A stretch of 64,000 bases of DNA. It comes from a bacterium. GTDB lineage: Bacteria; Electryoneota; RPQS01. Both the position numbers and the translations under genes were made by a program. Shown here one piece after another: positions 13,117-50,319 of this stretch. The notes beneath the pieces are model-generated. The model did no database searches. It was not told the DNA's origin and worked only from the letters and a program-made list of their open reading frames with translations. The first letter of the stretch is position 1. Each line of letters starts with the position of its first letter. The stretch is taken from assembly GCA_023382385.1 (NCBI GenBank), contig JAHDVH010000002.1, forward strand, positions 200,219 through 264,218, read 5' to 3'.

Positions 13117-13604
13117 TTCTTTTTCTCCGCCGGTTCCCAGTGCGAAATATCGAAGGCGATTTGTTTGCCGAGTCGGATCAATTTGGATTTGTTCATGTAG
13201 GAGCGCATGTTTCCGCTTTGATCGGCCCAGAGAATGACCATGACGAGCACGCTAATCAACAGGATGCCTTTGGCGGTTCCTCCGAAAAGACCGAGGATGC
13301 GGTCAGGCCATTTGAGTTTGGTACCGTCGATCCACGTATGCAGCCGATGACCGAAATATGCAAAGATGAGATAGACGAGCAGAAAGAAGAGCAGAAAGAC
13401 CAGACCTGACGCCCAGCGCAACTCCCAACCGGGTTCCGCGAGCCGACCGGCGAGTGCCTGCAGTTCATCGCGAAAAATGAGGGTCAGGGCCAAACTGACA
13501 GCAAGGCCGATGGAGATCATCAGCTCGAACAGGAAGCCTCGGCGAATTCCGCTGATGCCGAAGCCGATGATAAGGAAGATGATGAGGATATCGAGAAGAT
13601 GCAT
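13107..13604 (-). CDS. CvpA-family inner-membrane protein
   Basis: 165 residues with four hydrophobic helices in the CvpA order. The protein starts MHLLDILIIFLIIGFGISGI with RRGFLFELM immediately after, then helices near 55-80, 85-105 and 115-140, and a short charged tail. The family is linked to colicin V secretion and in other bacteria to envelope stress tolerance; its biochemical role is unknown. ATG 13604 is preferred over GTG 13643 because family members start right at the first helix and GAGG precedes it. The gene is commonly found next to mutS2 in bacterial genomes, as here. Confidence 0.85.
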   Translation of the reverse strand: MHLLDILIIFLIIGFGISGIRRGFLFELMISIGLAVSLALTLIFRDELQALAGRLAEPGWELRWASGLVFLLFFLLVYLIFAYFGHRLHTWIDGTKLKWPDRILGLFGGTAKGILLISVLVMVILWADQSGNMRSYMNKSKLIRLGKQIAFDISHWEPAEKKKWV

Positions 13605-13660
13605 ATGATGTGGTCCAGCCTCAAAATAGGCAAGCTGAGGCACTGGTGCAAGGGTTCAAG

Positions 13661-13692
13661 AAAAACGCCCGGCGGGAGACTCCGGCCGGGCG
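13661..13692 (-). terminator. Terminator of rpsU
   Basis: On the minus strand CGCCCGGC (13692-13685) pairs with GCCGGGCG (13673-13666), followed by TTTTT (13665-13661). It lies about 20 bases past the rpsU stop. Confidence 0.75.
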
Positions 13693-13713
13693 AAAGAGGC
13701 AGACTTGAACCGA

Positions 13714-13914
13714 TTAGCGGTTTCTCAGCATACGACTGATTTTGCGGATCTTACGCTGACGCTGTCCTTCATCGCGTTTGGCGATTTCGGAGGGTTTCTC
13801 ATAGAACTGCCGACGCCGGACTTCAGACAGAACTCCGGACTTCTCGCAAGACTTTTGGAAGCGGCGGACCAGCCGTTCCATTGGCTCGCCTTCGCGTGCT
13901 TTTACGAAGGGCAT
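13714..13914 (-). CDS. rpsU: 30S ribosomal protein S21
   Basis: A 66-residue basic protein of the small ribosomal subunit, needed for initiation on mRNAs in many bacteria. It starts [19 protein letters not shown], contains [20 protein letters not shown], and ends with a basic tail rich in Arg/Lys, all typical of S21. The ATG at 13914 is chosen because AGGAGGTGA lies 9 bases ahead of it; an in-frame GTG at 13926 is part of that ribosome site and would add only MNAN. A strong promoter is at 13970-13998 and a terminator follows directly, so the gene is monocistronic. Confidence 0.95.
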
Positions 13915-13969
13915 ATTTGCGTTCACCTCCTTTCGCGTGCGGTTAGGACTTTGGGGTTACGGAAATTTG

Positions 13970-13998
13970 AATATACGGAGAGCGGTTTTGAGAGTCAA
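13970..13998 (-). promoter_or_regulatory. Promoter of rpsU
   Basis: Minus strand TTGACT (13998-13993), 17-base spacer, TATATT (13975-13970). The leader is about 50 nt and contains the extended ribosome site AGGAGGTGA. Confidence 0.7.
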
Positions 13999-14122
13999 CC
14001 GTGAGAATGGGTGCAAACATGAACAATAATAAACGATAGAATGCCTCCCGATTGCGCGACTGAAAAATCCGAAATTAAGTTTTTTCATAATTTAGGACAT
14101 CAGAAGTCCATTTAGGGTTGAA

Positions 14123-14151
14123 TTGACAGGAGCAGGGGAGTTGTGTATCTT
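14123..14151 (+). promoter_or_regulatory. Promoter of nrfA-nrfH
   Basis: TTGACA (14123-14128), 17-base spacer, TATCTT (14146-14151). The transcript should start near 14158, 21 bases before the ATG, with AAGGAG at 14166-14171. I see no FNR-type TTGAT-N4-ATCAA palindrome next to it. Confidence 0.7.
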
Positions 14152-14178
14152 AGAGCCTATCATTTAAGGAGATTACTC

Positions 14179-15531
14179 ATGAGAATAGACTATTCCGCAC
14201 GCGGCGCCGCAGCCACCTGGATATTGTTCGTAATAAGCTTGATTGGTGTGCTGTTTGTTGTTTGGCTGCTCACTGATATTTTTGAGAAGAAACAGGAATC
14301 GCGATATTCGTATATCAAGACGCAGGAGCTGGCGTGGGGTGAACCCGACCCCGAAAAGTGGAAGGCGAACTTTCCACGGGAATACACGGCCTATATGAAG
14401 ACGTTGAAGACGTCTGAGCTTGCGGAGATCAGTCCGTACGCGCGGTACGGGGGGTCGGAGTCTTTCTCGAAGCTTGAGAAGGATCCACGGATGGTGCGGC
14501 TGTTCGCGGGGTATGCGTTTTCGATTGACTATAACGAAGAGCGCGGACACATGAACGCGCTGCAGGATATGCTGGAGATCAAGCGTCTGGGCGACAAGAA
14601 GCCGGGCACGTGTATGTCCTGCAAGAGTCCTCAGGTGCCGTTGTTCATAGAGGAGCATGGTGCGGAGGCTTTTTACAAGACTCCGGTGAAAGAGCTTGTG
14701 GAAAAGCACGGCTTCAAGCATTCGGTGTCGTGCGGGGATTGCCACAATTCCGAGACGATGGAACTGTTGGTCCGCAGGCCGGCGTACATCGAGGCACAGG
14801 CTCGGCGCGGCATAGACATCACGAAGCACGACCAGAATTTGAAGCGGACGGACGCCTGCGCGCAATGTCACGTCGAGTATTACTGGCCGAAGGAGACGAA
14901 CTATTTGACGTTCCCGTGGGATAAGGGACTATCGATCGATTCGATCGAGGCCTATTATGACGCGATCGGGTTCTACGATTGGGTGCACGCGGAAACGGGT
15001 GCCAAGATGGTGAAGATGCAGCATCCCGAGTACGAGATGTGGAGCAGTGGAATTCATTCGCGTTCGGGGGTCGGCTGCGCGGATTGCCACATGCCGTATA
15101 CACGTGAGGGATCGATCAAGATTACGGATCACTGGATCCGCTCGCCATACATGAATCTGACAAACGCTTGTTTGACGTGTCACCGCGAGAGCGAGTCTGA
15201 GATGGCGATGCGGATTCGCGAGATACAGGATCGGACGTGGCAGTTGATGGATCGGAGTGAGACGGCAATTATCGCGGCGATTGACGCGATCAAAGCTGCG
15301 ATTGAAGCTGGAGCGAGTGACGCGGAACTTGAAGAGTGCCGTGCGTTGCATCGTCGAGCGCACATCCGCTGGGATTTTGTGTCTGCCGAGAACTCGATGG
15401 GATTCCACAGCCCGCAGGAAGCGACGCGAATGCTTGGTGATGCGATTGATTTCGCGCGGCAGGCTGAACTTTCGGCCACGAAGCTGTTGGCCAAACACGG
15501 TAAGCTCGACGTCGCCGCGAACACCCGCTAA
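14179..15531 (+). CDS. nrfA: Ammonia-forming cytochrome c nitrite reductase, catalytic subunit
   Basis: Reduces nitrite to ammonia with six electrons in the periplasm. Five haem sites are present in the NrfA order: the catalytic CMSCK (145-149, lysine-ligated) and four CxxCH at 185, 227, 300 and 331. Active-site surroundings are intact: HVEYYW right after the third haem and QHPEYEMW..GIHSRSGVGCADCHMPY before and at the fourth. Residues 13-33 form one membrane helix, so the enzyme is probably anchored or has an uncleaved signal. ATG 14179 is chosen over 14143 because AAGGAG precedes it at 7 bases. The length of 450 residues is normal. nrfH follows after 15 bases. Confidence 0.95.
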   Translation: MRIDYSARGAAATWILFVISLIGVLFVVWLLTDIFEKKQESRYSYIKTQELAWGEPDPEKWKANFPREYTAYMKTLKTSELAEISPYARYGGSESFSKLEKDPRMVRLFAGYAFSIDYNEERGHMNALQDMLEIKRLGDKKPGTCMSCKSPQVPLFIEEHGAEAFYKTPVKELVEKHGFKHSVSCGDCHNSETMELLVRRPAYIEAQARRGIDITKHDQNLKRTDACAQCHVEYYWPKETNYLTFPWDKGLSIDSIEAYYDAIGFYDWVHAETGAKMVKMQHPEYEMWSSGIHSRSGVGCADCHMPYTREGSIKITDHWIRSPYMNLTNACLTCHRESESEMAMRIREIQDRTWQLMDRSETAIIAAIDAIKAAIEAGASDAELEECRALHRRAHIRWDFVSAENSMGFHSPQEATRMLGDAIDFARQAELSATKLLAKHGKLDVAANTR

Positions 15532-15546
15532 CTTACGGAGGGCAAG

Positions 15547-16005
15547 ATGAAGAAACCCTCTGGTTTGGCAAGCCTGACGGCGATACTGACGGGCGCATTG
15601 TTGGGGCTGGGGCTGTACACGGCCTACTACAGCAAAGCCTATTCGTATCTGCAGGATGATCCCAAGGCGTGCATGAACTGTCACGTGATGAAAGACGCTT
15701 TTGACGGCTGGCGCACATCGAGTCACCGCAACGTGACGTGCAATGACTGCCACACGCCGCACGACATTGTCGGAAAGTACTTGACGAAGGTCGAACACGG
15801 TGCGCGGCATTCATACGTGTTTACGTTTGAGGATCCGCAGATCTTTCGTTTGAAGAAATCCGGCGAGGAGATTGTGACCAACAACTGTGTGCAATGTCAT
15901 CAGACGATGGTGAATTCCACACTGCCAACACACCCTGAGGATAGGCGGTGTCTGATTTGTCATGAAGGCATCGCGCACGGCAGATTGGCCAACAGGAGAA
16001 GATAA
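15547..16005 (+). CDS. nrfH: Membrane tetrahaem quinol dehydrogenase NrfH
   Basis: NapC/NirT-family subunit that takes electrons from menaquinol and passes them to NrfA at the membrane. One N-terminal helix (8-28) precedes four haem sites: CMNCH (42-46), CNDCH (65-69), CVQCH (114-118), CLICH (135-139). The first is followed by VM, giving the CxxCHxM pattern of NrfH, where the methionine ligates haem 1. The length of 152 residues is typical. GGAGGG precedes the ATG. The order here is A then H, the reverse of the well-known nrfHA operons of Desulfovibrio and Wolinella. A strong terminator follows. Confidence 0.93.
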   Translation: MKKPSGLASLTAILTGALLGLGLYTAYYSKAYSYLQDDPKACMNCHVMKDAFDGWRTSSHRNVTCNDCHTPHDIVGKYLTKVEHGARHSYVFTFEDPQIFRLKKSGEEIVTNNCVQCHQTMVNSTLPTHPEDRRCLICHEGIAHGRLANRRR

Positions 16006-16017
16006 CAGCATCTATAA

Positions 16018-16052
16018 TCGGGCGGCTCAGGCGAGTCGCCCGATTTCTTTTT
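16018..16052 (+). terminator. Terminator of nrfA-nrfH
   Basis: An 11-bp stem (16018-16028 with 16033-16043, one G-T pair) with an AGGC loop, followed by TTTCTTTTT. The inner 24 bases are identical to the hairpin at 9910-9933. Confidence 0.8.
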
Positions 16053-16148
16053 GAATTGTTTCGAAATCAACTGATTAGGGCGCATCGACGCTGATAAAGC
16101 CGTTGCATTGAGTCCTCAAAACTTTGTGGACTGAAGAACGTTGGACTC

Positions 16149-16177
16149 TTGACAATCGTCGAGGGGAGACGTAAATT
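16149..16177 (+). promoter_or_regulatory. Promoter of Cys-rich/beta-helix cassette A
   Basis: TTGACA (16149-16154), 17-base spacer, TAAATT (16172-16177). The first gene starts at 16239 behind AGGAGG (16227-16232). Confidence 0.65.
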
Positions 16178-16238
16178 ACTTTCGGTGCACCAAGGGGAAT
16201 AGTGCATCGGGGAAACTCGCCCAGTCAGGAGGATTTGC

Positions 16239-16754
16239 ATGAAGAGAGCACCATTCACCGTCGCCGCAGGGTTGTGTCTTGCGGTTTTTTTGTGTCCGGG
16301 AATCGGGCGTGCGGATCTTTCGCAGGCGGATTGCTCCGACTGTATCCGCATCACCGATGCCACATGCTCGGATGACGGATGCACGACGTTCTTGACTTCG
16401 AACTGCAGCCGTCGCGAATTCACTCCGGCCTGCGATGGGATCTATGACCTTTATGCGGCGGTAGTCTCCTGCAGTGATGTCTGCGGCAAGTGCCACAGTT
16501 GCGTCAACATATTCAAGCTGGATGGCGCAACTGAGACTTTTCTTGCGAATTGCCACACGCATGAATGTGCGATTGACGATTGCGAAACACCGTGCATTGG
16601 TTCTGTGGAGTTGAATACAAGCAGTGTTTATGTCTTGTACGTCTGCAAGCTGTATTGTCCCGGCTACGCAAACGACTGTGTGGATTGCAATGAGTCGTGC
16701 GAGGCTATTGGCTGTGTTTCCTACGGGCATACGAGCCTGCCATGCACGCCATGA
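16239..16754 (+). CDS. Small cysteine-rich secreted protein (cassette A)
   Basis: 171 residues with a signal peptide (to about residue 26) and 21 cysteines in the mature part, in an acidic background. It has no sorting domain and no family that I recognise. It is clearly homologous to the protein at 49849-50319: both share a G-x-Y-x(4)-A start, a CxxCxSCVxI core, a later CxxxC-x-A/I-x-G segment and a C-terminal SxPC/SCP end. The cysteines are unevenly spaced and not in haem (CxxCH) arrays apart from one CGKCH, so disulfides or metal binding are more likely. Its stop overlaps the start of the beta-helix gene (ATGA at 16751-16754), so the two are translated together. Confidence 0.8.
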   Translation: MKRAPFTVAAGLCLAVFLCPGIGRADLSQADCSDCIRITDATCSDDGCTTFLTSNCSRREFTPACDGIYDLYAAVVSCSDVCGKCHSCVNIFKLDGATETFLANCHTHECAIDDCETPCIGSVELNTSSVYVLYVCKLYCPGYANDCVDCNESCEAIGCVSYGHTSLPCTP

Positions 16755-18358
16755 GTGTACAGTACCTTCGAATAATCATTCTGATGGTTTGGGTGATTAC
16801 TTTTGAATCGGGTATGTGCGAGGTCCTTTCTGTGCCCGGGGAATATCCCACAATTCAGACGGCGCTTGACTCTTCGGCGAGCGGCGACACCATCCTTGTC
16901 GCACCGGGCGTCTATCATGAGTTTCTGCTGGCACCGGCTCACTCGCTGACGTTGAGCGGCTGGTATTCGGGGGATACGCTGCCTGAATTCAGAACGGTTC
17001 TGGATCCGATCCCGACCGGTCTGGATACACCGTCCGCCGCAGTCTTCAGCGGCGACTCGGTTTCCATCATGAATTTCGCCTTTTATAATCGGCCGGAGTA
17101 TCGCGCGTTCGGAGCCTCGACCCGCACGGGCGGTGTGCATTTCAACGGAGTTGCGCTTTTCCTGAAAGATTGCCGCTTTGACTCAGTCTCCCGCGCGATC
17201 AAAGGCGGAGACAGGATCTATGCGAGGCGGTGCATCTTTAACGGCTGTTTCCGGCAATGTATAATGCCGGACGTGGGAGCTATGGTGGATTGCCATGACT
17301 GCTCGTTTGACGGTGAGGGACTCTGGTTTGTGTGGTGCTACAGCGGCTCCACGCTGCGCAACTGCACATTCCGCTGCAACCGGCTGCAGACGGAGTTCGT
17401 GCTCTTTCACGGAAGCAACATCACAATCGCAGACTGCAGGTTTGGCCCGTGTGTAAGCGCCTTTCCCGTTGTGAGTGCCAATCCAATCGAGAATTGCATA
17501 ATCGAGAATTGTGTCTTTGAAGGAATCGAACGGGCGAGTTCGATGATTTGGGTACTTGCGGATTGCGGAGTACCAAGTGAACACATGCAGATACGCATCC
17601 GCGGCAATACCTTCACGGATTATCATGGAATTTCACCGGCGACCGGAACAACAGCAATAAAAGTGGATTGCGACGAACAAGGTCCTTTCATGGTGGGAAT
17701 CATCGAAGACAATGTTTTCATGGATGGCAGTTCGAATCTCGCCACAGGAATAATGGCGAGTGCCACGATACTGGCAAAAGGAAACTTGTTCTTGGATTTA
17801 CTTCCAGTGCAGGTTGCGGATGTTCGTGCCTACCATTCCATTACCGACACCCTTTTCGCCCGAGAAAACGAGTTTTACGGTCCCGGAATTGCGGCTGTCT
17901 CATCTGCTCCCTATTTCGACGCAAGAGAGAATTGGTGGGGGGACTCGACCGGACCATATCACCCGAACTTGAATCCAAACGGTTTAGGGACGGAAGTTGG
18001 AAACGGAGTGGTGTTCGAACCCTGGCTGACGATGCATCCCGATTCCAGCGAAGACACGACCGAAGTCGAGAGTGACAGATTGCCGGCCGCTCTGCCGCAG
18101 GTATTTTCGCTGAACGCATTCCCGAATCCGTTCAACGGAGTGACGACGCTCTCGTTTACGCTCGGTCGCGAGCAGGCCGTCGAGATCAGGATCTTCGACC
18201 TGCTCGGGAAGCAGGTGGAGTCATTGGTCAATGAACGGTTCACAGCGGGAACACATCACATCATGTTCGAAGGAAGCGAATTGCCCAGCGGCCTATACTT
18301 CGCGAGATTGGTGACTCCGCAGACTTCCACCACGACGAAGCTGATTCTACTCAAGTAG
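16751..18358 (+). CDS. T9SS-exported right-handed beta-helix protein (cassette A)
   Basis: 535 residues from ATG 16751, which overlaps the previous stop as ATGA; an in-frame ATG at 16742 is the alternative. Residues 1-24 are a signal peptide. The opening LSVPGEYPTIQTALDSS and GDTILVAPGVYHE is the typical start of pectate-lyase-like beta-helix (NosD/PbH1) surface proteins. Repeats with Cys- and Asn-containing turns (NCTFRC, DCRFGPC, NCVFEG, GNTFTD, DNVFMD, ENEFYG) run to about 390, then ENWWGDSTGPYHPNLNP closes the helix. The sorting domain follows: LNAFPNPFNGVTTLSFTL to the final LILLK. No catalytic motif is visible; adhesion or glycan binding is plausible. Its paralogue is at 48287-49897. 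Confidence 0.85.
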   Translation: MSVQYLRIIILMVWVITFESGMCEVLSVPGEYPTIQTALDSSASGDTILVAPGVYHEFLLAPAHSLTLSGWYSGDTLPEFRTVLDPIPTGLDTPSAAVFSGDSVSIMNFAFYNRPEYRAFGASTRTGGVHFNGVALFLKDCRFDSVSRAIKGGDRIYARRCIFNGCFRQCIMPDVGAMVDCHDCSFDGEGLWFVWCYSGSTLRNCTFRCNRLQTEFVLFHGSNITIADCRFGPCVSAFPVVSANPIENCIIENCVFEGIERASSMIWVLADCGVPSEHMQIRIRGNTFTDYHGISPATGTTAIKVDCDEQGPFMVGIIEDNVFMDGSSNLATGIMASATILAKGNLFLDLLPVQVADVRAYHSITDTLFARENEFYGPGIAAVSSAPYFDARENWWGDSTGPYHPNLNPNGLGTEVGNGVVFEPWLTMHPDSSEDTTEVESDRLPAALPQVFSLNAFPNPFNGVTTLSFTLGREQAVEIRIFDLLGKQVESLVNERFTAGTHHIMFEGSELPSGLYFARLVTPQTSTTTKLILLK

Positions 18359-18382
18359 CCTCGCCAGAGGAAAGAGAAACAA

Positions 18383-18406
18383 AAGCCCGCTCGAATGAGC
18401 GGGCTT
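18383..18406. terminator. Bidirectional terminator between cassette A and DUF3078 gene
   Basis: Perfect 10-bp stem AAGCCCGCTC / GAGCGGGCTT with a GAAT loop, between two convergent genes. Confidence 0.75.
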
Positions 18407-18432
18407 GTCAGTTTTGCGAAAGTGCGGAAGAA

Positions 18433-19362
18433 TTACTTCGCGGTCTCTTTCTCGTAGTTGGCGAAGTTGTAGACAATCCCGACTGAGAGTGCCTGCTTCA
18501 GGCGGCCACCGAGGTCCACTTCTTTGTCGTACAGCAATTGCCATGCGAGTCCGACATTGATCAGCGAAGAAACCTTCACTCTGAAGATGTTGTCCCAATT
18601 GGCATCCGCGGTTTTCCAGTAGTCATTGGGAAGCTCATCTTTCTTCGAATTAAAGAGCGCCTGAAACAGCGTCAGTTTTGAGTTAAAGCTGTATTTGCTG
18701 TTAGCGGAACCGAGGAGCAAGTCCGTGACCCATTCCACACCGCCGTCCACCGTAGTCTCGGAAAGTGTAGCGGGTTCCGCGCTCAAGGTATCCGCAGGGT
18801 CGTCAAATCGTACGATGCGTTGACGCAAACCGAGACCGAGTCGGGTGGTCAGCTTGGTCTGGTCGGGCACTTCAATAATCGTTCTGGCAAGACCGGACGA
18901 TTCGGTCAGCTCAATCGGATTCACGTAACGAGACGTGTACGGACTGGAGGCATCCAGAAACTGTGATTCGAAGGTGAATGCGAAATAGGGATCGGCGAAC
19001 CAACCCTTGGTCAATTTCATGATCGCATCGTAGCGAATCTTATCTTCCGATTTGGTCGGTTTCTGCCAGTCTTTGGTTTCCTTGTGCTGAATGTGAGTCT
19101 GTCCAAAGGACAACTTCACGTCATGCTGCGTGTACCAATTGCGCGTGAGTTGACGGCTGGAGATACTGTTGTAGAAGGCAGTCCAATTGATCGAACCGGC
19201 TTCGCCACCCGTCCAGTTGTCAGAATACGAAGATTGCGTTGTCACGAGGCCGGTTGAGATGTCCGTTTTCCACGGACCCGGATCCGGTTGTGCGGCATGA
19301 GCAAGTGCGCAAATCAGACAAGTCGCGAGGAAAGCCAACGGCATTCTCATAGACATATTCAT
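18433..19362 (-). CDS. DUF3078-family outer-membrane-associated protein
   Basis: 309 residues with a signal peptide ending ALAHAAQ. The following SSYSDNWTGGEAGSINWTAF is the signature of DUF3078, a family of predicted beta-barrel proteins in the Bacteroidota/FCB group with no assigned function. The rest alternates in short strands rich in aromatic residues, ending in a strand-like YNFANYEKETAK. Five ATGs lie close together; I take 19362, which follows GGAA, since the in-frame TTG at 19374 overlaps the mscL stop region. It is 12 bases behind mscL and probably co-transcribed with it. Confidence 0.8.
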   Translation of the reverse strand: MNMSMRMPLAFLATCLICALAHAAQPDPGPWKTDISTGLVTTQSSYSDNWTGGEAGSINWTAFYNSISSRQLTRNWYTQHDVKLSFGQTHIQHKETKDWQKPTKSEDKIRYDAIMKLTKGWFADPYFAFTFESQFLDASSPYTSRYVNPIELTESSGLARTIIEVPDQTKLTTRLGLGLRQRIVRFDDPADTLSAEPATLSETTVDGGVEWVTDLLLGSANSKYSFNSKLTLFQALFNSKKDELPNDYWKTADANWDNIFRVKVSSLINVGLAWQLLYDKEVDLGGRLKQALSVGIVYNFANYEKETAK

Positions 19363-19374
19363 TTCCAAGGTCAA

Positions 19375-19800
19375 TTACTTTTTCAACAAATCACGAATCT
19401 CTTCAAGCAGCATTTCGGACTTCGGCGGCGGCGGCGGCGCGGCGGGCGCGGCCTGTTCCTTGCGGCGAGCGGCATTCATGGCTTTGACGAGAATGAAGAT
19501 TGCGAACGCAGTGATCAGGAAGGTGACAATCGCATTGAACCAGTCGCCCCACGCCATGACCACCGCACCGGCAGCCTGCGCGGCAGCTAATGATGGATAC
19601 GGCCCAGCCGTGGTTCCCTGCTTGATAACCAGGAATAGATTGGAGAAATCGACATTGCCCAGCAACAGTCCGATAGGGGGCATAATGATGCCATTTACCA
19701 GCTTGGAAACAATGGGGCCGAAAGCGGCGCCCATGATGATACCAACGGCCATGTCCAGGACATTGCCGCGCATCGCAAACTCTTTGAATTCCTTTAACAT
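19375..19800 (-). CDS. mscL: Large-conductance mechanosensitive channel
   Basis: Emergency osmotic release valve in the inner membrane, working as a homopentamer. It starts MLKEFKEFAMRGNVLDMAVG and continues GIIMGAAFGPIVSKLVNGIIMPP, the hallmark first helix. The periplasmic loop (VIKQGTTAGPYPSLAAAQAAG) leads to the second helix near 75-100, then a charged tail with a Pro-rich linker and a C-terminal helix bundle segment (EMLLEEIRDLLKK). The length is 141 residues, normal. ATG 19800 is chosen because GGGAG precedes it; upstream in-frame codons lack family similarity. Confidence 0.95.
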   Translation of the reverse strand: MLKEFKEFAMRGNVLDMAVGIIMGAAFGPIVSKLVNGIIMPPIGLLLGNVDFSNLFLVIKQGTTAGPYPSLAAAQAAGAVVMAWGDWFNAIVTFLITAFAIFILVKAMNAARRKEQAAPAAPPPPPKSEMLLEEIRDLLKK

Positions 19801-19834
19801 ACGTAACTCCCTGTGAAGTGAGGCGGTATATTGT

Positions 19835-19863
19835 AATATATGGCTATCTATGTTCAGAAACAA
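19835..19863 (-). promoter_or_regulatory. Probable promoter of mscL
   Basis: Minus strand TTGTTT (19863-19858), 17-base spacer, TATATT (19840-19835). The -35 is weak; the -10 is good. Confidence 0.45.
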
Positions 19864-19878
19864 ACATCCTGAAAACAA

Positions 19879-19908
19879 GCAGGGCCGTCACAAAGTGACG
19901 GCCCTTGC
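19879..19908 (-). terminator. Terminator of the TPR-thioredoxin-fold gene
   Basis: GCAGGGCCGTCA pairs with TGACGGCCCTTGC (one bulge) around a CAAAG loop. On the minus strand it is followed by TTGTTTTC. It lies 20 bases past the stop at 19929. Confidence 0.75.
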
Positions 19909-19928
19909 TGCAAAATATTTGCAATCGC

Positions 19929-21026
19929 CTACATTCCGGCCTGCACGTGCTCCGACAGCCAGATGGTCGTCTCGAGCAAATCAGTCTCGTGTCCTGCCCC
20001 GTAGACAAGAGCATGCACAAAGCCATCGGCGCCGATTACGTAAATGCAGGGACGCTTGGCCGCATTCAAATCGAGATCCAAGGCTTCCTCACTCTGCACA
20101 AAGTTGATGCGCCAGCGCGTGCCGTTGCGGTCCGTTTCGGAAATGACTTCAGGCGCATTGGCAGCATTCCCGCCGACATTGATCGCATAGACCGGCCATT
20201 TGATCTTGTTCTCGCCGATAGCCTTGTTTATCTCTGCAAGCGAATTATTTATGCAGATCTCCGAACCCATTGACCAGTAAATCAAGAGCGAAACATGCCC
20301 GCGCAAGTCCGACGGTTTCACCTTCTCGGCGGGTTTGCCTACAGTCGCGAGTTCCACATCTATCGGGTGATCAGGGACGATGCCATTGATTAAAGCGAAG
20401 TATGCTTCGGCGTCGCGCTGAATCAAGTAGATATCGAGCAGTCGGGTGCGGGTTGTTTCATCCTGTGAATCGGCAATTAAACTGGATTCATAGGCTTCTC
20501 GCGCACGCGCAAGATCTCCCTGCTCGTCGTAGAACATTCCCAGAAAATTGTAGCCTTCAGGCCGTGAAGGATCCTCGAGGATGGACTGCTCGATCCGCGC
20601 GCGCACCAACTCGTAATCCGGCTGCTCCTTGTGCCACTCGGTGGCCATGTAGCACAGCCAGAGGAAGGAATTGTGCGGTTCCCGTTCGACCCACGCCGCA
20701 ACTTGCTCTTCCGGCAACTGGAAATTTGTCGCACGCGCGTACAGATAGAAACTCGCAGCGTTGTTCAGCCGCTCATAACGCTGGCGAAAGAACTCAGGTG
20801 CGTCAGGAAGAAGTTTAGCAATCGCGACTTGCACTTCCTTTCCCGCCGCGACATCGTTGGGAAACTGCTCAAGCAAGGCCAGTCCACGTTCCAACCGTGT
20901 CGCGGAGTCAAGAGCGAAGAGATTCGCCTCTGCTACGGCTTGTTCGGCACGAGTTCGCACAACAGGCACCGGAGTGGCGGCATGTGACGTAAACGCCACA
21001 ATCAACAATGTGATGAGGATTGGCAT
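19929..21026 (-). CDS. Secreted TPR protein with a redox-dead thioredoxin-like domain
   Basis: 365 residues from ATG 21026 (AGGAGCC upstream; signal peptide MPILITLLIVAFTSHA). Residues 60-235 are TPR-like helices with PSRPEGYNFLGMFYDEQGDLARAREAYESS at the centre. Residues 250-365 have the thioredoxin fold of TlpA/ResA-like proteins, but where the active site CxxC should be the sequence reads IYWSMGSEICINN, so the redox pair is lost. It is a full-length paralogue of the protein at 47121-48218, also 365 residues, which keeps WCGPC. I infer a non-enzymatic, possibly chaperone or binding, role in the periplasm. The substrate is unknown. Confidence 0.8.
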   Translation of the reverse strand: MPILITLLIVAFTSHAATPVPVVRTRAEQAVAEANLFALDSATRLERGLALLEQFPNDVAAGKEVQVAIAKLLPDAPEFFRQRYERLNNAASFYLYARATNFQLPEEQVAAWVEREPHNSFLWLCYMATEWHKEQPDYELVRARIEQSILEDPSRPEGYNFLGMFYDEQGDLARAREAYESSLIADSQDETTRTRLLDIYLIQRDAEAYFALINGIVPDHPIDVELATVGKPAEKVKPSDLRGHVSLLIYWSMGSEICINNSLAEINKAIGENKIKWPVYAINVGGNAANAPEVISETDRNGTRWRINFVQSEEALDLDLNAAKRPCIYVIGADGFVHALVYGAGHETDLLETTIWLSEHVQAGM

Positions 21027-21110
21027 GAGTGGCTCCTGAATAGTATTACAAGATAGCACTCCCGCAGGTCCTCGGCAAGACGCGCAGACTAAGAATCTCC
21101 CGAACAGAAA

Positions 21111-21132
21111 GGCCCGCTCTGAAGAGCGGGCC
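21111..21132 (-). terminator. Terminator of the Lys-rich/zinc-ribbon gene
   Basis: GGCCCGCTC / GAGCGGGCC with a TGAA loop, 6 bases past the stop at 21139. Read on the minus strand it is followed by TTTCTG, a weak T-tract. Confidence 0.6.
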
Positions 21133-21138
21133 CGAAAC

Positions 21139-22014
21139 TTAGTAATCGTCGTCTCCACCGGAATCATCGCTGCCGCCGTATCCGGAATAGTCTTCATCGC
21201 GTTTACGAGCGGCAACACGGCGTTTCAGACAGTTGAAACAGACACGCTCAATCGACAACCATCCAAACTGCTGTCCGCAGTCCACACAGGTCTGTTGGCG
21301 GGGCGGCAGCCGCTTGGGACGCGGAGGAAGCGGCGCGGGCGCAGGCGGGCCGATCAGGTCCGGGTCTAGAATCAGCGTGCCGGACACCGGATCAAGGTCA
21401 TCAATGAGATCTTCAACCTCCTCGATCTCTTCTTCACCCTCCATATCCTCAACCAGAAACTCCTCGGTCGCACTTCGCTTCTTGCCGCGCACCGGTTTGC
21501 GGGCTGCGTCGCGCTTGCGCTTCTTCGCTTGGCTCGAACCTTCATCCTCATCGTCTTCACCGTCCGAGGCGGCAAAAACATCCTCAATCGAAGCTGGATC
21601 AAACAAGACCTCATCTTCATCGAAGAGGTCATCATCCTCGATATCAATATCCGGAACAATTGCTTTCACAGGGGCGGGTTCTGCGCGATCTGTTTTCGGC
21701 TTGCGACCGCGTGGTGCAGGGGACGGCTCTTTCTGAGTGGCAGGAGGGGCTGTCGTTTTTGCGGCTTTCACCGGACTTGCCGTCTTGACTGCCGGCTTCG
21801 TCGTTTTCGTGGCTGCCTTGCCGCTCTTCTTTGGGGTGTCTTCCCCGCTCTTCGGAGTCTTAGTCAATTTCGTCTTAGTCGGCTTTTCAGGGGTTTTCTT
21901 TGTGGACTTGGCAGTGTTCGGCTTAGCCCCCTTTTTCGGAGCGGACTTCGCAGAGGAGTCAGAACTTTTCGACTTCCCTTTTGTTTGGGGGGGCGGATTC
22001 TTGCGCGGAGCCAT
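21139..22014 (-). CDS. Lys/Ala/Pro-rich protein with acidic middle and C-terminal zinc ribbon
   Basis: 291 residues from ATG 22014; a longer frame upstream lacks a ribosome site. Residues 1-130 are very rich in Lys, Ala, Pro, Ser and Thr, like histone H1 tails (TKTTKPAVKTASPVKAAKT). Residues 135-225 alternate acidic blocks (DIEDDDLFDEDEVLF, EGEEEIEEVEDLIDDLD) with a basic patch KKRKRDAARK. Residues 245-275 form a CxxC...CxxC zinc ribbon (CVDCGQQFGWLSIERVCFNC) and the end is Gly/Asp-rich. It is probably cytoplasmic and disordered except for the ribbon, which resembles the short zinc ribbons found on nucleic-acid-binding proteins. A function in nucleoid or RNA binding is inference only. Confidence 0.75.
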   Translation of the reverse strand: MAPRKNPPPQTKGKSKSSDSSAKSAPKKGAKPNTAKSTKKTPEKPTKTKLTKTPKSGEDTPKKSGKAATKTTKPAVKTASPVKAAKTTAPPATQKEPSPAPRGRKPKTDRAEPAPVKAIVPDIDIEDDDLFDEDEVLFDPASIEDVFAASDGEDDEDEGSSQAKKRKRDAARKPVRGKKRSATEEFLVEDMEGEEEIEEVEDLIDDLDPVSGTLILDPDLIGPPAPAPLPPRPKRLPPRQQTCVDCGQQFGWLSIERVCFNCLKRRVAARKRDEDYSGYGGSDDSGGDDDY

Positions 22015-47061: not shown

Positions 47062-47090
47062 TTTCCATTTCCAAGCAAACGTTGTATCTT
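47062..47090 (+). promoter_or_regulatory. Promoter of the TPR-thioredoxin gene
   Basis: TTTCCA (47062-47067), 17-base spacer, TATCTT (47085-47090). The gene starts at 47121 behind GGAGG at 47112-47116. Confidence 0.5.
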
Positions 47091-47120
47091 GTCGACACAC
47101 GAACCCTGAACGGAGGAATG

Positions 47121-48218
47121 ATGAGATACATACTAATTAGTCTTGCCCTGCTCGCAGCGGCTCTTGCTTGGGCGACCGAACCCCAACCTTCGGTCAAGTC
47201 TGCCGGCGAGTTGGCATGGGAAGCGATTCCCAACACAATTCCGGATGATCAACAAGTCCAAACTGCTCGACAGTTCTTGGACCAATATCCTGATGATATT
47301 CCATTGCTGCGCAGCGTGCAGAACGTCCTGAATCGGAAGTCCGACCTGACGCTTGACTTCTGGAAAGAACGCATGGACGCAAACCCGACATCGGCGAACC
47401 GCTATCTATATGCGCGCAAAAGCGGAGATCCGCAGATCATGAGGGAGCAGGCGCGGCTCATGATGCGGCGCGACAAAGGTAACTTTTGGGGTTACTATCT
47501 TGCCGCAGTGGCGGAGTTAAGTAAGGACAAGCCCGACTTGAAAGTGGTGACCGACTATTTCGAAAAGGCCATTGCCAAAGACCCCTCTCGTCCAGAGGGA
47601 TGGGGCTATGCAGCACAGGCTTACGAGGAGCTGAAAGACTGGGACAACGCCTTGCGGATGTATGAGGCGGCGATGGTCGTCGACCCAAGCGACAAACACC
47701 CCAAGATGGCTATTCTGGGAATATATGCTCAGCAGAAGGACGCGGACAAGTATTTCGCGCTTGTGGCGGAGCTGCTTCCCAAGGAGCCGCCGCTTGACAT
47801 TAGTCTCGAACGATACAACTCGGATGTCTTATTGACCACCAATGACCTCAAGACCGACTACACAGTCTTAGAGGTGTTCGCATACTGGTGCGGGCCGTGC
47901 GTGCGGGTCGCGTTGCCGGAAATGAATAAGCTCGCCGAAGCCGGCGCTCTTCCCTTCCCCTTCTATCCAGTGCATGCGGAAGGCAAGAACGAAGGCGGCC
48001 TTGCCTTAATGGATTCCAATGACGTCACGGGTCGGGAGTGGCATCTGAACTTTGTTTTCGGTGACCAACAGTTGAACGAACGGCTTTCGGTGGTGGCCTA
48101 TCCTTCATTCTATGTGATTGACAATGAGGCACGACCGGTGGCCATTCTGGTCGGGCATTCCGAAAGCACGATTGACATCCTCGAATGGCTGATTATTGAA
48201 GCAAAGAAGCGCACGTAA
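47121..48218 (+). CDS. Secreted TPR protein with thioredoxin domain (active WCGPC)
   Basis: 365 residues from ATG 47121, 4 bases behind GGAGG (ATG 47118 is too close to it). Signal peptide MRYILISLALLAAALAWATE. TPR-like helices occupy about 60-235, including DPSRPEGWGYAAQAYEELKD. The thioredoxin-like domain follows (about 245-365) with EVFAYWCGPCVRVALPEMNK carrying the intact CGPC active site and VVAYPSFYVID with the cis-Pro region. It is a periplasmic disulfide oxidoreductase of the TlpA/ResA type, though the partner is unknown. The paralogue at 19929-21026 has the same length and layout but no active-site cysteines. Cassette B with its Cys-rich protein lies just downstream on the other strand. 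Confidence 0.88.
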   Translation: MRYILISLALLAAALAWATEPQPSVKSAGELAWEAIPNTIPDDQQVQTARQFLDQYPDDIPLLRSVQNVLNRKSDLTLDFWKERMDANPTSANRYLYARKSGDPQIMREQARLMMRRDKGNFWGYYLAAVAELSKDKPDLKVVTDYFEKAIAKDPSRPEGWGYAAQAYEELKDWDNALRMYEAAMVVDPSDKHPKMAILGIYAQQKDADKYFALVAELLPKEPPLDISLERYNSDVLLTTNDLKTDYTVLEVFAYWCGPCVRVALPEMNKLAEAGALPFPFYPVHAEGKNEGGLALMDSNDVTGREWHLNFVFGDQQLNERLSVVAYPSFYVIDNEARPVAILVGHSESTIDILEWLIIEAKKRT

Positions 48219-48286: not shown

Positions 48287-49897
48287 CTATCTGAGCAAGA
48301 CGAGCTTGGTCACGGCGTTGTCGCGAGCGGTGCTAAGGTGCACAAAGTAAACCCCACTGGCAATGCCGCTCATGTCAACGGAAACTTGATGATGCCCCGC
48401 CGCGTATACGGACTCCGGCAGCGTGGATACTACTCTCCCTAAGATGTCGAACACTCCCAGCTTTACGCGTGACGCACGTTCGAGCGAAAATGTGAGCAGG
48501 GTGGTGCCATTGAAGGGATTGGGATGTGCGGCGAGACTCAAGAGAGTAGGAGCCGCTTCGACCTGCTCAGATGCTGAGGCGACGGAATCCGCATGCCATG
48601 GAACAAACTGAACGACGCCTGTCAGTGTATCGCCTAACCCTGAGGGATTCAGCGTCTCGTGAAACGGCCCCGACGTGTGCCCCCAATAGTTGAAACGCGC
48701 ATCCGTGGACGCGGATCCATCCAGCGCATAACCGCATGAGGCGAAGTGATTGTCCCGCAAAAGTGCAGGAGTTTCCTGCCACCAGTTTCCGGAAACTATC
48801 GAGGGAAGACCGTTCAGGCTGTCCCTCTCGAAACGATTATAGACGATCCGCACGGGCGAAGTCACCGAGGTGGAAATGTCGTCCACCGCAAAAACCCCTG
48901 AGCACTCAACAAAGGAATTGCCGTAAATCAACGCGCCATGTTGTAAGTCGCCCGGAGTTACCAGCCCGACAACTCCCTGTGCGGCAAGACCTGTATCGAG
49001 TCCCCGGCAGCGAACGAAGGTATTGCCCGCAATCCGTACAGAGTCACCTTCGCTCGAGGACACGTAGAGCGTATGATAGCCGTAGTTACAGTCAGTAAAT
49101 GCATTACCTTCAAACTGAATGACTCCGTCGCTTAAATAGACGACTTCCCGCGAAGGCAACGTCGTGACCGGACCGAAAACGCAATTGCTAATGGAGTGTG
49201 GCCCAAACGTGCAGGTGAGCAGCGTACGCCGACCGGTAGACGAGAAAGTGCAGGAGTCGATAGATGAACAGACCGAGGACACTACCGGTGTTTCGCTGTC
49301 CCCGACACCGTGGAACAGGCAGTGCCGAGCGGACAGGCAGTTGCCCGCTCGCATTGATACACAACGCCCGCTCAATCCGCGGAATTCACAATCCTTCAGC
49401 TCAATCAGCGCTTCGAGACTGTCCGGCACGTGCCGGAAGCCGTCGACCATCTCGGCAAAAACGCAGTTCACGATTCTGACGCTATCCGCCCAACCTCGAA
49501 CACCATGCCTGCCGCTATTGCGGATCTCAAAGTTCTCTATTCGTGCGGATGCAAAGTATGGTATTGAGAGGGCTGCCATCGTGTCTGCGGCCTCAAGACT
49601 GGACGGATCGAGTGTCGGTCTCAAGACTTCACCGGAGTCACTCAGTAGCTCTCCAATCAACGCAAAGGCTAACGGCGGTGCGACTACGATTTCTTCGTAT
49701 GTCCCGAATGACACAAACAGCGTGTCTCCGTGACCAAGGCTATCCAGACCTGCCTGAATGGTCGGAGCATCGGCGGGAACCGAGATGACTCGCCCATCAA
49801 CCGTACCTGTCGGCACGAGCAACAATGCCGACAACGTCACGAGTGCAGCTATGGACAACTTGCGATTCCGCTGACAATATTGCCGTAAGCCTTGCAA
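48287..49897 (-). CDS. T9SS-exported right-handed beta-helix protein (cassette B)
   Basis: 536 residues, paralogue of 16751-18358 (535 residues). The start TTG at 49897 has GGAG five bases ahead and supplies the basic signal-peptide head (CQRNRK) before IAALVTLSALLLVPTG. It begins ISVPADAPTIQAGLDSL and GDTLFVSFGTYEE, carries the repeated turns (NCVFAEM, DCEFRG, HCLFHG, SCTFSS, NCVFGP, GNAFTD, GNTFVR, GNSFVE), and ends the helix at FNYWGHTSGPFHETLNPSGLGD. The sorting domain is SLAAHPNPFNGTTLLTFSL to the final LVLLR. No catalytic motif seen. The 49-base overlap with the upstream Cys-rich gene indicates coupled translation. Confidence 0.83.
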   Translation of the reverse strand: MQGLRQYCQRNRKLSIAALVTLSALLLVPTGTVDGRVISVPADAPTIQAGLDSLGHGDTLFVSFGTYEEIVVAPPLAFALIGELLSDSGEVLRPTLDPSSLEAADTMAALSIPYFASARIENFEIRNSGRHGVRGWADSVRIVNCVFAEMVDGFRHVPDSLEALIELKDCEFRGLSGRCVSMRAGNCLSARHCLFHGVGDSETPVVSSVCSSIDSCTFSSTGRRTLLTCTFGPHSISNCVFGPVTTLPSREVVYLSDGVIQFEGNAFTDCNYGYHTLYVSSSEGDSVRIAGNTFVRCRGLDTGLAAQGVVGLVTPGDLQHGALIYGNSFVECSGVFAVDDISTSVTSPVRIVYNRFERDSLNGLPSIVSGNWWQETPALLRDNHFASCGYALDGSASTDARFNYWGHTSGPFHETLNPSGLGDTLTGVVQFVPWHADSVASASEQVEAAPTLLSLAAHPNPFNGTTLLTFSLERASRVKLGVFDILGRVVSTLPESVYAAGHHQVSVDMSGIASGVYFVHLSTARDNAVTKLVLLR

Positions 49898-50319
49898 GAT
49901 AGCTCCTCGCAGTACGCCTCGACATCAACTTCACTGCACGCGCGAAGTTGGACTCTAATTTCGTAGCTCCCCGGGGAAAGCTGCAGTTGGCAGACTTTGC
50001 AGCACGTTTCGGAGCAAACAGCACTGTTGGTGCAGTCCGCAACATAGCTTCCGGCCGACGTGTAGATTGCGACACACGATGCACAGTGTTCGCAGTTCGA
50101 TTCGCCGCAATCAGTCCACGCTTTGATTGTGTACGTCCCGAAGCAAACGACCGTGAAGGAGGTAGAGGCAAACCCGCTTGCATAGTCACAAGTCAAAGTA
50201 CCCGCGCACGTTTCGTCTTTCGTGCCAGCGGCAAGATGGCAGCCAGGGTCATCCGCCTGTGCGAGCACAATCGAACTGAAAGCGAACATCGCCCATACAA
50301 ACCAAATCAGATTCCTCAT
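49849..50319 (-). CDS. Small cysteine-rich secreted protein (cassette B)
   Basis: 156 residues with a signal peptide (MRNLIWFVWAMFAFSSIVLAQ) and 17 cysteines in the mature part. Homologous to 16239-16754: GTYTIKAWTDC matches GIYDLYAAVVSC, CEHCASCVAI matches CGKCHSCVNI, CEELSCKAYGNIVSGIASCP matches CNESCEAIGCVSYG..PC. It has no sorting domain, unlike its beta-helix partner. The N-terminal 40 residues differ between the two copies. Function unknown; disulfide-rich or metal-binding. It is transcribed from the promoter at 50374-50402. Confidence 0.8.
   Translation of the reverse strand: MRNLIWFVWAMFAFSSIVLAQADDPGCHLAAGTKDETCAGTLTCDYASGFASTSFTVVCFGTYTIKAWTDCGESNCEHCASCVAIYTSAGSYVADCTNSAVCSETCCKVCQLQLSPGSYEIRVQLRACSEVDVEAYCEELSCKAYGNIVSGIASCP

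Follow-up and report, generated by a model that had tools for sequence, protein, structure and literature searches.

Type A cargos of the T9SS, such as AmyB, RemA and the gingipains, carry a TIGR04183/PF18962 tail. The known cargos of this type are described as being collected via the tail by the PorV shuttle (PMC12618676), and the proteins moved by the T9SS are folded (PMC9251779). The nearest described arrangement to the one discussed here is that of the type B CTD and PorP/SprF pairs, e.g., SprB-SprF and PG1035-PorP, in which the genes of cargo and dedicated partner are likewise neighbours, with many paralogous pairs and few orphans (PMC9143113, PMC12618676). In those pairs the partner is an outer-membrane barrel of 14 strands, and the cargo has a type B tail (PMC9143113, PMC12618676). 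In hitchhiker (piggyback) export of folded complexes, as with the Tat-exported hydrogenase and in peroxisomal import (cited in PMC9251779), a subunit that lacks a signal goes out with the one that bears it. No described case of such export by the T9SS was found in the literature search, nor any mention of type A cargos with small partners that lack a tail, in a search that mostly covered literature other than subscription journals.

The locus considered here lies in a window of 64,000 nucleotides, which is the whole stretch of DNA analysed, from a bacterial genome (the home genome, G000; 2.9 Mb, 98% complete). It consists of a gene for a small secreted protein followed by a gene for a beta-helix protein. 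Judged by its type A tail and by the SprA translocon of the genome, the beta-helix partner is a predicted type A T9SS cargo; the SprA/Sov match (TIGR04189) is one open frame of 2108 aa, which scores 714 bits where the cut-off is 200. This is in contrast to the known type A cargos in that each beta-helix cargo of a cassette has a small, tail-less partner encoded upstream. The type A tail alone matches on the beta-helix cargo, with no match to the type B CTD (TIGR04131), and the paired small partners, which are secreted, soluble-looking and 130-180 aa long, have no match to the PorP family of FadL-like barrels. Hitchhiker export is the mechanism proposed here: the export signal is present on one of the two proteins only, and their co-inheritance suggests that they may form a complex.

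Organization of the cassettes

The window contains two cassettes, A and B, with the following features.

16227..16232, + strand: AGGAGG ribosome-binding site of the small gene of cassette A
16239..16754, + strand: small gene of cassette A, 171 aa, no T9SS tail
16751..18358, + strand: beta-helix gene of cassette A, 535 aa, overlaps the small gene by ATGA
17201..17662, + strand: Pfam Beta_helix match of cassette A, residues 151-304
18119..18346, + strand: type A T9SS sorting domain of cassette A, residues 457-532
48287..49858, - strand: beta-helix gene of cassette B, 523 aa from a probable TTG start at 49858
48299..48523, - strand: type A T9SS sorting domain of cassette B
49849..50319, - strand: small gene of cassette B, 156 aa, 17 Cys

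The small protein of cassette A has a Sec signal peptide at its N-terminus (by inspection) and 23 cysteines, 21 of which lie past the predicted signal peptide; the 21 cysteines counted in the initial annotation are those of the mature part. The ATGA overlap described there is present as well, with the ATG of the beta-helix gene at 16751 and no ribosome-binding site ahead of it. The large protein matches Beta_helix (1.5e-9) and Por_Secre_tail (4e-11) in Pfam and the type A profile TIGR04183 (1e-10). The assignment of the sorting signal to the larger partner alone was borne out: the sorting domains of A and B both exceed the curated cut-offs (TIGR04183/PF18962), and none of 32 small proteins has a Pfam or NCBIfam match to a C-terminal sorting domain.

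Cassette B had been described as a second, diverged copy of the same pair at 48287-50319. The large proteins of A and B indeed share 31% identity over their full length (E 7e-53), and the small proteins share 28% (pairwise E 3e-4) and are firmly connected via intermediates. The ATGA junction does not extend to this copy, which has no ATG for the large gene at the junction; the longest open reading frame begins at 49897 on the - strand, and the likely start is the TTG at 49858, which gives an overlap of 10 bases with the small gene.

Among the Cys-rich small genes as a group (type 1 below), a ribosome-binding site precedes 23 of 24, versus none of 16 beta-helix starts at the junction, and many junctions are ATGA or fall within 10 bases. 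Because the ribosome-binding site is on the small gene only, translation looks coupled, and the layout, as read from the junctions, is that expected for termination-reinitiation with a fixed stoichiometry.

We also note that proteins with TPR and thioredoxin-like domains are encoded near both cassettes (19929-21218 and 47082-48218). The one beside cassette B keeps CGPC, and the one near cassette A looks, by eye, like a relative without it. The slot between the nrfAH and DUF3078/MscL genes that houses cassette A (13500-20000; L048) is occupied by a cassette in both congeneric genomes. These two are not orthologous: the cassette of the other genome (G001) is related to home-genome cassette C2:823 (72% and 61% identity), and cassette A groups with C2:587 rather than with the G001 cassette of the same slot. 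Whole cassettes seem to move or to get replaced between slots.

Pairing of small genes and T9SS genes

A search of the home genome with the two window small proteins as queries, and then with an alignment, found 10 Cys-rich small genes. Each of the 10 is followed directly, on its own strand, by a gene that encodes a T9SS tail; nine of the partners are beta-helix proteins and one is a subtilase. This is more than chance, because all 10 are paired though the genome has only 118 sorting domains above cut-off in 2.9 Mb. The subtilase-T9SS partner (L012; G000 C5:72059-75657) is 1035 aa long and constitutes a natural partner swap. Another home-genome cassette (L011, or C2:491; G000 C2:489948-491992) is decaying: in-frame TAG codons interrupt the small and the large gene alike, and the frame is broken close to where the small gene starts.

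A profile of 32 small proteins matched in 6 of 386 genomes, all within the window's own taxonomic family, and for 30 of the 36 matches the next gene downstream encodes a T9SS or beta-helix protein. The congeneric genome G001 holds thirteen pairs, in two of which (L054, L056) the beta-helix tail is broken or missing. The six small genes that have no T9SS neighbour comprise five in G008 and one in G003; those of G008 are a tandem run of four and a single one (L060, L061). A divergent subfamily of the small protein is encoded at L086 (1418-1963) and L087 (about 1370-1819). The L087 gene precedes a different, non-beta-helix T9SS gene, and the L086 copy has no T9SS neighbour.

The reverse test started from the beta-helix protein. 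A profile of the beta-helix partners, together with the pairs already collected, yielded 60 relatives from the family that are full-length or nearly so. For 55 of these genes, a small secreted gene ends no more than some tens of bases from the beta-helix start, and five are without one. All 14 intact beta-helix partners of the home genome have a small gene ahead, and so does a 15th, which is decayed and falls outside the 60; retention of the pair merely because there are two copies was rejected on these 15. For comparison, about none of 10 other, non-beta-helix T9SS genes has a credible small upstream neighbour on our reading. Four of the 10 are in the window and six elsewhere, none was chosen for a small neighbour, and two flagged open reading frames beside them are artefacts inside other genes.

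Chance neighbourhood is thus excluded by the counts within the home genome and across the family. The pairing, which had been thought to have been kept through duplication and divergence on the basis of the two window copies, was retained over many duplications and survives the test for coincidence in both directions (30/36 and 55/60). It is less exclusive than proposed, since the Cys-rich protein is encoded once beside a subtilase-T9SS gene, once beside another T9SS protein, and six times with no T9SS neighbour. With five beta-helix genes unpaired as well, the pair is not obligate.

The small protein

No match to the small protein was found in Pfam, NCBIfam or PDB, and homology to known small Cys-rich families or solved structures was rejected accordingly. 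Across 27 diverged copies, 14 Cys columns are conserved in at least 80%. By a crude cleavage rule, the mature cysteines are even in number in 24 of 28 small proteins, which favours disulfides over metal. Both window proteins are among the odd ones, so there is room in them for one free Cys.

AlphaFold models, built on the two window sequences only, are all-beta with 7-8 strands in two runs and of low confidence (pTM 0.54 and 0.58; mean pLDDT 53 and 59). Foldseek searches with these models returned beta-sandwich matches only, none of them significant (best E 7e-3). The models resemble the beta-sandwiches of Pre-peptidase C-terminal, CBM6 and TNF-like domains, which have no sequence match to the small proteins and differ from them in Cys content. 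The predicted fold is a disulfide-stapled beta-sandwich, with low confidence in its details.

Types of small partner

The small genes ahead of the 55 paired beta-helix genes are of at least four sequence types: type 1, which is Cys-rich (27 genes), type 2 (8), type 3 (13), type 4 (4) and three unclassified genes. Type 2 proteins have 6-13 mature Cys and type 3 proteins few. Cys-richness had been taken as a general property of the pair, which does not hold: elsewhere on the tree of this beta-helix the small partners have 2-13 mature Cys, and some of them are perhaps unrelated. A high Cys content thus characterises one branch and not the cassette as such. Profiles of the mature parts only were compared with shuffled controls, which reached at most 1.8%; type 1 matched type 2 at 80% probability (E 1e-5) and type 4 at 62% (E 7e-5), and type 3 matched no other type. 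The comparison suggests that types 1, 2 and 4 are distant relatives.

In some other families of the phylum, small secreted genes lie directly ahead of beta-helix T9SS genes, for example at L142, L144 and L160, and so the arrangement may be phylum-wide. By inspection, these small proteins are unrelated in sequence.

Co-inheritance of the two partners

A maximum-likelihood tree was built from the 60 beta-helix proteins, and small-gene type was mapped onto it; the 55 paired genes require four changes of type, the minimum for five labels, and no exchange of types between beta-helix clades is seen. Treating the five genes without a partner as a sixth label gives nine changes against a shuffled mean of 30. 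These five are scattered over the tree, as separate losses would give. One of them (L088) adjoins the same ferritin gene as its tree sister, cassette C2:721, and because the slot is common to both, the small gene was probably lost there.

Pairwise distances were compared for the 27 type-1 pairs. Those of the small protein and of the beta-helix body correlate at r = 0.81 (Mantel p 0.0002). Between the body and its own sorting domain r is only 0.44, and it is 0.28 between the small protein and the sorting domain. Length-matched pieces of the body give r 0.65-0.82 with the small protein, not far from the 0.74-0.84 that they give with the rest of the body. In its evolution the small protein thus behaves as if it belonged to the beta-helix body, and the two diverge equally (mean identity 0.31 for the small protein, 0.30 for the partner). 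Nearest neighbours agree between the small and large trees in 12 of 27 cases; hence the fine branching is not identical, through noise or occasional recombination.

Linked duplication alone gives congruent trees, and congruence is therefore no proof of contact. The sorting domain, however, is covalently attached to the body and yet decoupled from it, and so linkage alone does not hold parts together. The low correlation of the sorting domain may come from its short length or from gene conversion, and the length-matched controls oppose length alone. Tail exchange or gene conversion among the genome's 118 sorting domains is suggested, because the divergence of the sorting domains of type-1 partners, both window copies included, correlates poorly with that of their own bodies.

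Proposed mechanism and alternatives

We propose that the two genes form a cassette, retained by vertical descent, for a surface complex of two subunits, in which the small protein would be exported as a passenger; we put the probability of this reading at about one half. The gene order, the coupling layout, the co-inheritance and the missing tail of the small protein are its observed basis. The small protein would be translated first, from its strong ribosome-binding site, and ribosomes that end the small gene would re-initiate on the beta-helix gene, fixing the ratio. Both proteins would enter the periplasm by Sec. There the small protein would take on a beta-sandwich fold, held by some nine or more disulfides, and may dock on the beta-helix body. 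The complex would then cross the SprA/Sov pore on the type A sorting domain of the beta-helix protein, with the tail-less small protein as its passenger. On the surface the small protein may be kept as a variable module, perhaps ligand-binding. Binding to the beta-helix, and co-export with it, are what we infer from these features. The long inheritance of both genes as one unit makes it probable that the small protein is a dedicated subunit exported on its partner. Of the three roles proposed initially, namely cargo partner, metal- or disulfide-rich surface domain and maturation factor, the coevolution favours a subunit of the body, and the even cysteines favour the disulfide version over the metal one.

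In the main rival reading, the small protein would act in the periplasm as a maturation factor, i.e., a dedicated chaperone or thiol partner that stays in the cell and assists the beta-helix protein in folding or in remaining competent for export. First and coupled translation, the lack of a sorting domain and tight co-inheritance with the body rather than the sorting domain would all fit such a factor. Yet five beta-helix genes, scattered over the tree, do without it, six small genes are kept with no T9SS gene beside them and one is partnered with a subtilase; a divergence equal to that of the partner is fast for a chaperone, and no thioredoxin-type domain was detected in the small protein. 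The subtilase pairing, the partnerless copies and the equal divergence count somewhat against this role, which we regard as unlikely, with a chance slightly better than one in five. Marginally more doubtful is that the two are separately exported envelope proteins with a common ecological role, such as binding of the same substrate, and no contact, the operon serving for co-expression alone. Unpaired small genes, including the tandem run of four in one genus, and the lone beta-helix genes are what such independence would produce; a distance correlation as high as that inside the beta-helix body, and small types never swapped between beta-helix clades, are not.

Two further readings concern what the small gene is for. 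The up to 22 cysteines, with CxxC pairs, bring to mind a metallothionein-like metal-binding protein displayed on the surface by the beta-helix, but export to an oxidising compartment, the mostly even number of Cys, the predicted beta-sandwich and the related small types with far fewer Cys make this very improbable. The strong ribosome-binding site on the small gene only would also suit an upstream gene that acts mainly as a translational leader and whose protein matters little. This is nearly refuted by signs of selection on the protein, that is, conserved Cys columns, even Cys, and the conservation of both signal peptide and full length although identity is about 31%. A polymorphic toxin/immunity pair looks improbable: the beta-helix aligns over its full length and lacks a variable, toxin-like C-terminus.

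Implications

In work on the T9SS, a type A cargo is regarded as one chain, recognised through its tail. We suggest tentatively, at somewhat less than even odds, that the cassettes represent a class of modular T9SS surface complexes with two subunits, of which the small one, clade-specific, never exchanged between clades and tail-less, is carried through the T9SS pore by its beta-helix partner, and that this would be the first hitchhiker export by the T9SS. The small-protein family named here is absent from existing family libraries. A conserved, duplicated and coupled tail-less partner would make the co-export of folded complexes directly testable, and the cassette gives a function-linked unit to the large unannotated surface repertoire, with its 118 sorting domains, of these uncultured bacteria.
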